Source: Candidatus Shapirobacteria bacterium
GTDB lineage: Bacteria; Patescibacteriota; Microgenomatia; UBA12405
Direction of reading: 5' to 3'
NCBI GenBank assembly: GCA_028700625.1
Contig: JAQVSI010000009.1
Location: 1 to 36,088 of the forward strand
DNA length: 36,088 bases
The position numbers and the translations under genes were made by a program. The notes under the pieces are model-generated. The model did no database searches. It was not told where the DNA came from and was given only the letters and a program-made list of their open reading frames with translations. Shown piece by piece: positions 25,726 through 28,256 of the stretch. Within the stretch, counting starts at the first letter, position 1. The number at the start of each line of letters is the position of its first letter.

Positions 25726-25737
25726 GTTTATGGTAAA

Positions 25738-25780
25738 AAAGAGATGTAGTTTAAAACTACCCCGTAGTCTACATCTCTTT
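25738..25780. terminator. Strong hairpin after the two-gene cassette
   Basis: AAAGAGATGTAG (25738-25749) pairs perfectly with CTACATCTCTTT (25769-25780). An inner ACTAC-CCC-GTAGT hairpin lies at 25756-25768. The arms end in A and T runs, so it could work as an intrinsic terminator in either direction, although the T-tract is short. Confidence 0.72.
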
Positions 25781-25835
25781 ACCCATTTCAAAAAAATAAT
25801 ATCCAGGTAAAATAAAAAGACTATTAAAAAGTCAA

Positions 25836-25869
25836 TTGACACTTAGCAATAGAAGTGTTAGACTGCTAA
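25836..25869 (+). promoter_or_regulatory. lon promoter with overlapping CIRCE-like (HrcA) operator
   Basis: TTGACA (25836-25841), a 17-bp spacer, then TGTTAGACT (-10 hexamer 25859-25864), 7 nt before the ATG at 25872. Over it lies TTAGCA (25843-25848), exactly 15 nt, then TGCTAA (25864-25869). CIRCE is TTAGCACTC-N9-GAGTGCTAA; this site has the same 27-bp length and matches 15 of the 18 defined positions. HrcA bound here would block the -10, so lon is predicted to be heat-inducible through HrcA. Confidence 0.7.
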
Positions 25870-25871
25870 TT

Positions 25872-28256
25872 ATGACAGATAATATTAACCAAAATCCAGT
25901 TCAAACTCTGCAACCTCTTCGAAAAGTACTGCCTCTTATTCCCCTTCGTAATATTGTTCTTTTTCCTTCAGTCGAAACTTCTCTTTTTTTTGGCCGCAAA
26001 GAATCAATGAATTCCCTTCTCCATGCTTACGATAATACTAACAAATTAGTCGTTATTGCAACACAGCAAAATTCTCGGATTGAAAAACCTCAATACGAAG
26101 ATCTCTATAATGTCGGTGTTTTAGCTAAAATTGAACACATTCTTCAAAGCGACGGCAGTCTTCACGCCATTGTTAAAGGTATTTCTCGAGTTAATATTCT
26201 TAACTTAACTCAAACAGATCCATTTTTTGTCGTCGAATATGTAGATCTTCCTGTAGTTGCTGAACCTGTAGTTGAAATTCAACAATCAGCTGAAGCCTTG
26301 TTAAGTCAACTTAAAAAAGCTTTTGCTATGGGTCGCCAATTTGATCTTCCTGCAATGATGCAGCTTTCAACCGGTGTCTCTAGTAGTGATCTTGCCGATC
26401 AAGTTTGTTTTTCTATTGAAGCCAAAATTCCTGAAAAACAAGTTTTATTAGAGACTCTTATTGTTAGTCAAAGATTAAAAGCGGCTACAGAACGTTTAAT
26501 TCAGGAAATGAAAGTGGCTGAACTTGAAAGATCTATTGAGGAAAAAACTCAAGAAAAATTTAATACAGGAGTTAAAAGAAATGTTTTAGAAGAAAGAAAA
26601 CGTCAAATTGAAAAAGAATTAAAACGTCTTGGTCAAAGTAGTGGAGGGGAATTTTCTGATTTAGAAAAGAAAATAAAAAATAAAAATATTCCAGAAGAAA
26701 TTAGAAAAAAATTAAATAAAGAATTAGAACGTCTTGCCGAAATGGGCTCTATGGCTCCAGAGTCTAGTTACATTCGCACATATTTAGAAACTGTGGCTGA
26801 GCTTCCTTGGGGCAATTATAGTGAATCTAAGATTAGTCTTTCCAGATCCTCAAAAATTTTAGATGAAGATCACTATGGTATTAAAGATGTTAAAGAAAGG
26901 ATTCTTGAATATTTAGCAGTTTTAAATCTTAAAAACAAAACTAACACCAAAGGCGAAGAGCTGTCGGCCACTGCTAATATACTTTGTTTTATTGGTCCTC
27001 CAGGAGTTGGTAAAACCTCTTTAGGTAAATCTATTGCCAAAGCTATGGGTAAAAGTTTCGTTCGAGCTTCTCTTGGTGGTATTCGTGATGAAGCCGAAAT
27101 TCGTGGTCATAGAAGAACTTATGTTGGGGCCATGCCAGGTCGTATCGTCAAAGGTCTTAAAGATGCCAAATCAATGAATCCAGTTTTTATGCTCGATGAA
27201 ATTGACAAAATTGGCGCTGACTACCGAGGTGACCCATCTGCTGCTTTACTAGAAACTCTTGATCCAGAACAAAATCGTGAATTTTCCGATCATTATTTAG
27301 ATTTTCCTCTAGATTTGTCCAAAGTTTTCTTTATTTTAACCGGTAATGATTTATCGACTGTTCCTGGTCCACTTAAAGATCGTTTAGAAATTATCAATTT
27401 TTCTGGTTACACTCAAGAAGAAAAATTCCACATTGCCAAAAAATATTTAATTAAAAAAGAGCTTAAAGCTAACGGTTTAAAAGAAAATAATTTGGTCGAA
27501 ATTAAAGACGAAACCATTAGATATTTAATTGACAAATATACTCGTGAAGCTGGAGTTCGTGGACTCGAAAGAGTTTTCGCTAGTCTTTTTAGAAAAGTTG
27601 CTAAAAAAATTATTGTCAATCATGTTAAAAAAGTCAATTTAAACGATCAAGCTGTTATTAAAAAATTCTTAGGCCCTGCTAAATTTAATTCCACTTTAAA
27701 AGGTAAAAAAGATGAAGTTGGTTTATCCACTGGTCTAGCCTGGACTTCTGTTGGTGGTGAAATTCTTTTTGTTGAAGTTAATGTTATGCCAGGTAAAGGC
27801 CAACTAATTTTAACCGGTAAACTTGGTTCAGTTATGAAGGAATCTTGTCAAGCTGCTCTTTCTTATATTCGTAGTCAAGCCAAAGAATTTGGTATCAAAC
27901 AAGATTTTCACAAAATAGATATTCATATTCATGTTCCAGAAGGAGCTACTCCTAAAGATGGTCCTAGTGCTGGCGGTGCCATTACTACAGCTCTTATTTC
28001 TGCTCTAAAACAAGTTGCTGTTCCTAGAGATCTTGGTATGACAGGGGAAATAACTTTACGGGGAAATATTTTAGAAATTGGCGGTCTTAAAGAAAAATCT
28101 ATTGCTGCTCATCGAGCTGGTTTAAAAACTATTTTTATTCCAAAAGATAATGAAAAAACTTTAATCAATATTCCCAAAGAAGTTAAAAAAGATATCAAAT
28201 TTATTCCTGTCTCTCACTATTCCGAAATCTACAAAAAGATTTTTAAAAACAATTAA
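25872..28256 (+). CDS. lon: ATP-dependent protease Lon (LonA)
   Basis: Cytoplasmic AAA+ serine protease degrading misfolded and regulatory proteins. The N-terminal LON domain begins LPLIPLRNIVLFPSVET and is followed by a coiled-coil segment. Walker A GPPGVGKTS lies near residue 375, Walker B is VFMLDEIDKIG, and the sensor-2 region includes REAGVRGLER. The protease domain has the catalytic Ser in PKDGPSAGGA (about residue 699) and the catalytic Lys in LKEKSIAAHRAG (about 741). At 794 aa it is full-length. The ATG at 25872 is chosen over an upstream in-frame start at 25836 because that one falls inside the -35 box. Its 3' end overlaps a minus-strand gene by 14 nt. Confidence 0.97.
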   Translation: MTDNINQNPVQTLQPLRKVLPLIPLRNIVLFPSVETSLFFGRKESMNSLLHAYDNTNKLVVIATQQNSRIEKPQYEDLYNVGVLAKIEHILQSDGSLHAIVKGISRVNILNLTQTDPFFVVEYVDLPVVAEPVVEIQQSAEALLSQLKKAFAMGRQFDLPAMMQLSTGVSSSDLADQVCFSIEAKIPEKQVLLETLIVSQRLKAATERLIQEMKVAELERSIEEKTQEKFNTGVKRNVLEERKRQIEKELKRLGQSSGGEFSDLEKKIKNKNIPEEIRKKLNKELERLAEMGSMAPESSYIRTYLETVAELPWGNYSESKISLSRSSKILDEDHYGIKDVKERILEYLAVLNLKNKTNTKGEELSATANILCFIGPPGVGKTSLGKSIAKAMGKSFVRASLGGIRDEAEIRGHRRTYVGAMPGRIVKGLKDAKSMNPVFMLDEIDKIGADYRGDPSAALLETLDPEQNREFSDHYLDFPLDLSKVFFILTGNDLSTVPGPLKDRLEIINFSGYTQEEKFHIAKKYLIKKELKANGLKENNLVEIKDETIRYLIDKYTREAGVRGLERVFASLFRKVAKKIIVNHVKKVNLNDQAVIKKFLGPAKFNSTLKGKKDEVGLSTGLAWTSVGGEILFVEVNVMPGKGQLILTGKLGSVMKESCQAALSYIRSQAKEFGIKQDFHKIDIHIHVPEGATPKDGPSAGGAITTALISALKQVAVPRDLGMTGEITLRGNILEIGGLKEKSIAAHRAGLKTIFIPKDNEKTLINIPKEVKKDIKFIPVSHYSEIYKKIFKNN

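Follow-up and report, generated by a model that had tools for sequence, protein, structure and literature searches.

The window (the whole stretch of 36,088 nucleotides analyzed here) is contig 31 of an 813-kb genome that is 96.7% complete. The closest named loci with the same Lon, 89–91% identical, belong to Candidatus Shapirobacteria, a lineage of the Microgenomates (Microgenomatia) within the Patescibacteria. The features around the lon promoter are the following:

25732–25783, no strand assigned: terminator-like inverted repeat with a perfect 12-bp stem (AAAGAGATGTAG/CTACATCTCTTT), upstream of the lon promoter
25836–25841, plus strand: −35 element TTGACA of the lon promoter; TTGAC, TTTAC or TTGCC lies exactly 1 nt before CIRCE in nearly all 52 class genomes
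25843–25869, plus strand: CIRCE-like putative HrcA operator TTAGCA-N15-TGCTAA, 15 of 18 positions as in the CIRCE consensus
25843–25851, plus strand: left CIRCE arm TTAGCAATA; the outer TTAGCA is kept and the inner 3 nt vary among relatives
25856–25864, plus strand: extended −10 element TGT-TAGACT in the right half of the operator; in the class sites TG is conserved to 86–96% and TAnnnT to 96–100%
25861–25869, plus strand: right CIRCE arm GACTGCTAA, an arm type shared with the groES and hrcA operators of the clade (TTAGCAGTC)
25872–25874, plus strand: lon start codon ATG, 7 nt after the −10 element, a leaderless geometry
25872–28256, plus strand: lon, encoding ATP-dependent protease La of 794 amino acids (TIGR00763; Pfam LON_substr_bdg, AAA and Lon_C)

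The earlier note had named the downstream gene lon, and with 852 bits against TIGR00763 (cut-off 608) it encodes a genuine and complete Lon, in which the substrate-binding, the AAA and the S16 protease domains are all present. The inverted repeat, a candidate terminator, probably separates lon from the preceding gene.

Read 5′ to 3′, the −35 box is followed after 1 nt by the operator, the operator by TT and this by the ATG at 25872; the span 25836–25872 singled out in the earlier note thus runs from the −35 box through the A of the ATG. The promoter spacer between TTGACA and TAGACT (25842–25858) has 17 nt, and the −10 hexamer TAGACT (25859–25864) carries a TGn extension. The operator is composed of TTAGCA ATA GAAGTGTTA GAC TGCTAA (whole sequence TTAGCAATAGAAGTGTTAGACTGCTAA). 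Its halves have the exact CIRCE spacing (27 bp in total) and its outer 6-bp arms match at 12 of 12 positions; the left inner triplet is ATA vs. CTC in CIRCE, and the right one is GAC. The geometry described earlier (exact CIRCE length, 15 of 18 matches, both outer arms perfect) was confirmed base for base, and so were the overlap with a TTGACA-17-TAGACT promoter and the end of the palindrome 2 nt before the start codon.

A chance match in an AT-rich genome could explain such a palindrome, but nothing was found in its favour and we consider it practically excluded. TTAGCA-N15-TGCTAA matches once in the window and not once in 100 shuffles; genome-wide palindrome scans, which were pattern searches, found it exactly at seven places in the whole 813 kb, and the reversed-pattern control at none. 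In Markov-shuffled lon upstream regions (52 regions with 40 shuffles each) 12 of 12 outer-arm positions were never reached. Under a scoring matrix trained on 46 sites that relatives have on hrcA and groES, with no lon site included, the lon site scores 27.7 bits, which is the first rank in the window (the runner-up has 4.3 bits) and the median of the training sites; the random maximum under this matrix was 20.4 bits in 8 Mb. Chance was rejected since the shuffles never match the site and since it is conserved across the class.

The conservation was read from 52 Microgenomatia genomes with a lon upstream region, 30 of them from the family of the window. The outer arms on lon are perfect in our genome and the six others of its genus (7/7) and in 18 of 23 further family members; the other five have 10 or 11 of the 12 positions, and the site is present in all 30 family genomes. 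In the class, 50 of 52 genomes have a lon site of at least 10 bits and 49 one of at least 15 bits, where 3.75 and 0.25 per Mb, respectively, are expected at random under the lon-free matrix. The two genomes below 10 bits are G043, whose lon upstream region contains no CIRCE-like site, and G049, which has a 28-bp version (N16) approximately 240 nt upstream of lon; G052 has a weak match of 11.0 bits. The arms are thus kept in the genus, the family and most of the class, which is what the earlier note had proposed to look for upstream of lon in relatives. In other Patescibacteria classes CIRCE on lon is mostly absent (L137, L138, L140, L142–L146, L148 and L149). Two Patescibacteria families outside the class (L139 and L141) both have TTAGCAGTC-N9-GATTGACAA approximately 100 nt upstream of lon, a shared repeat that may be a weaker CIRCE.

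The bases could also be kept only as promoter and start-codon context, with the palindrome as a by-product, and at lon the −35 box, the extended −10 element and the spacing to the ATG are indeed all conserved. In the column profile of the class TTGAC, TTAGCA, TGnTAGACT and TGCTAA are mostly conserved to 84–100%, with variable columns in the middle and in the inner left triplet; the −10 variants of distant families (TAGAGT, TAAACT, TATACT, TATATT) all keep TAnnnT. Yet TTAGCA sits in the spacer between −35 and −10, where the polymerase requires no specific base, and is nevertheless conserved to 88–100% in the class lon sites, and TGCTAA to 98–100%. Moreover, the palindrome is missing from the leaderless promoters of other window genes. 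Conservation as a promoter alone is contradicted by the columns of the arms and was rejected as very improbable; judged from the alignment, the column pattern is the one expected where polymerase and repressor both constrain one set of bases.

The ATG follows the operator within 1–4 nt in 28 of the 29 family genomes other than our own, and in the family no conserved reading frame precedes it. Where relatives have the ATG at +4, the −10 element supplies an in-frame TAG, and where they have it at +3, the operator supplies an in-frame TAA; therefore, no translation start lies further upstream there. An in-frame TTG at 25836 in the window was rejected as start codon because it is the −35 box and because several relatives have in-frame stops before the ATG. 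Since the stops in operator and −10 element fix the ATG, the lon mRNA is probably leaderless. The distance from −10 to ATG is 7–9 nt in most family genomes and, by the usual distances from −10 to transcription start, the transcript probably starts at the ATG or within approximately 3 nt of it. The leaderless start claimed in the earlier note fits the geometry of lon but is no peculiarity of this gene: among the 26 genes of the window, 12 carry a −10-like hexamer 5–10 nt before the start, compared with 8 in the 44 more distant upstream positions, and a Shine-Dalgarno-like motif precedes only 2 of them (example gene starts in the window: 3148, 6898, 8388, 11305 and 23133). From these positions leaderless architecture seems to be common in this genome. 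Elsewhere in the class some genomes have their next ATG 10–30 nt downstream of the operator, so that the layout is typical, not universal.

The genome contains hrcA, on contig C1 (L010:637–1371, minus strand), as an open frame of 253 amino acids. Microgenomatia HrcA have approximately 245 amino acids vs. the 338 positions of the equivalog model TIGR00331, against which our HrcA scores 189.9 bits (curated cut-off 197.2); a score just below the cut-off is consistent with a shortened HrcA. The C-terminal domain is above the cut-off of PF01628 (61.7 vs. 22.2 bits), and the winged helix, typical of HrcA, aligns to residues 13–93 of Thermotoga maritima HrcA (1stz; E = 5e-15), which is the top solved relative both by sequence and by predicted fold (15 class members, pLDDT 86, TM 0.72/0.56). 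With 18–21 bits for these proteins, PF03444 was not sensitive enough by itself, and an alignment-based search was used instead.

As to the other CIRCE copies that the earlier note had suggested looking for together with hrcA, sites were found on hrcA, hsp20 and groES. The one before hrcA (C1:1373–1399) ends 1 nt before the hrcA ATG, one lies directly before hsp20 (PF00011), and the one on groES (C18:8027–8053) reads TTAGCAGTC-GGTCATTTT-GACTGATAA, with an N9 spacer and one outer-arm mismatch. The sites on hrcA and groES of relatives have, as in our groES, the arm type GTC/GAC beside the textbook CTC/GAG, and the right arm of the lon site is of this GTC/GAC type; the hrcA promoters of relatives show the same layout with CIRCE in the promoter adjoining the ATG. 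On C1 hrcA is followed by grpE; contig C52 carries the end of hrcA, a slightly different grpE, dnaK and dnaJ. Between C1:1–1400 and C52:1–640 the hrcA 3′ end and grpE thus occur in two versions with small differences, probably from a second strain merged in the assembly.

We therefore propose, with a probability of approximately 0.9, that lon has in the 27-bp palindrome its HrcA operator (CIRCE), embedded in the core promoter. The site, its conservation, hrcA, the CIRCE sites on hrcA, groES and hsp20, the promoter overlap and the start codon were all read from the sequence. The presence of hrcA, the conserved arms and the promoter overlap support the earlier note in its view of an HrcA operator on lon acting by blocking the polymerase. 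Of the two findings that the note had named as refuting, a genome without hrcA and 6-bp arms not kept in relatives, neither was obtained. Three findings count against the proposal: the genomes G046 (L065) and G047 (L056), which belong to other families and are 95–97% complete, keep the CIRCE-like site on lon while neither hrcA nor groES was found in them even by the alignment-based search; the inner left triplet ATA is not CIRCE-like; and our HrcA stays just below the TIGR00331 cut-off.

The palindrome could instead be bound by a different repressor sharing the TTAGCA/TGCTAA arms, for which these two genomes speak, together with several incomplete family genomes also without a detected hrcA and with a second class of TTAGCA-N15-TGCTAA in the genus that has a CCTA-N4-TAGG partner. 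We regard this as unlikely: the same arms, including the GACTGCTAA type, lie on the promoters of hrcA and groES, which are classical HrcA targets, and the lon sites score like the hrcA and groES sites under a matrix trained without lon.

The second class was met in the genome-wide scans. The remaining exact palindromes lie before pth (C32), before ppsA (C49), between the genes of a penicillin-binding protein and pheT (C22) and before the gene of an Ig-like protein (C53), and other genomes of the genus have them at the equivalent positions. In most of them a second palindrome, CCTA-N4-TAGG, lies exactly 23 nt off one end, and both orientations relative to the gene occur. These composite elements are intergenic and lie near pth, ppsA, an mtaB-like gene, the gene of the Ig-like protein and pheT:

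C32:8149–8210 (L012:4150–4211), C49:2308–2369 (L014) and C22:26399–26460 (L011): composite elements of our genome
L218–L237: composite elements of genus relatives

In a pattern search that allowed 18–28 nt the spacing of the pair was almost only 23 nt in the family and 24 nt in the other families of the order; the reversed control of the composite pattern gave no match. The CCTA-N4-TAGG partner is absent from the lon, hrcA, hsp20 and groES sites. A speculative reading, which we hold to be rather improbable, is that the shortened HrcA of Microgenomatia has a regulon beyond chaperones, with lon as an ancestral promoter-embedded target, and that in the order of the Shapirobacteria it would also act, together with a partner, at a composite element of CIRCE-like palindrome and CCTA-N4-TAGG at a fixed 23–24 nt near the genes of peptidyl-tRNA hydrolase, PEP synthase, a tRNA methylthiotransferase and a surface Ig-like protein.

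In other bacteria heat-shock proteases are controlled by sigma-32, CtsR or HspR; lon is likewise a heat-shock gene in these systems, but regulator and operator differ from those proposed here. In delta-proteobacteria CIRCE is found on groESL, hrcA-dnaK and rpoH, and sigma-32-like sites precede clpP-clpX-lon (PMC545781). The classical CIRCE TTAGCACTC-N9-GAGTGCTAA of groESL and hrcA-grpE-dnaK shares with the lon site the 27 bp, the TTAGCA/TGCTAA arms and the overlap with a sigma-70-type promoter, whereas the lon site matches it at 15 rather than 18 of 18 positions, with ATA as left and GAC as right inner triplet.

Control of lon by HrcA and CIRCE has been reported for Mycoplasma pneumoniae (PMC7737663), Spiroplasma melliferum (PMC5138195) and Mycoplasma gallisepticum (PMC4245973), and in these Mollicutes lon is grouped with dnaK, clpB and dnaJ as HrcA target (PMC7737663, PMC4245973, PMC5138195). 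The earlier note had called such control less usual; with the precedents in Mollicutes (PMC7737663, PMC5138195, PMC4245973) it is not as rare as the note implied. As in these small genomes, CIRCE lies upstream of lon here; unlike in Mollicutes, which are of a different phylum, the whole core promoter is covered by the operator, which ends 2 nt before an ATG of the leaderless type, and the arm types include TTAGCAGTC/GACTGCTAA beside CTC/GAG. A further difference is that M. pneumoniae lon is also served by an upstream trigger-factor promoter. The three mismatches of the lon site exceed the two-mismatch rule for Mycoplasma (PMC4245973); its right-arm GAC is that of the clade's groES. The open-access literature that was searched contained no relevant paper on HrcA or leaderless mRNAs in Patescibacteria; HrcA-CIRCE on lon is known from Mollicutes and, in the searchable papers, not from Patescibacteria.

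Because the operator overlaps the core promoter, the direct reading, well supported by the sequence, is that HrcA would repress lon by promoter occlusion. At normal temperature an HrcA dimer would sit between the −35 box and the start point, cover the extended −10 element and block RNA polymerase. Upon heat or misfolding stress HrcA would lose DNA binding. Titration of GroEL may be the trigger, as suggested by groES with its CIRCE and by analogy with B. subtilis, whose HrcA loses binding as GroEL becomes titrated (Mogk et al. 1997, as cited in PMC7737663). On release, lon would be transcribed along with hrcA-grpE, groES and hsp20, its mRNA probably starting no more than about 3 nt from the ATG. 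Binding by HrcA, repression as the direction of control, GroEL titration and the exact start point are what we infer.

Lon would thus be a conserved predicted HrcA target in Microgenomatia as in the unrelated, also genome-reduced Mollicutes. Gene regulation has hardly been studied by experiment in the large group of the Patescibacteria, for which this gives a concrete class-wide stress regulon, and the fixed layout of promoter and operator could serve to annotate their lon start codons and heat-shock genes automatically. The wider HrcA regulon, if true, would tie protein stress to translation and central metabolism.
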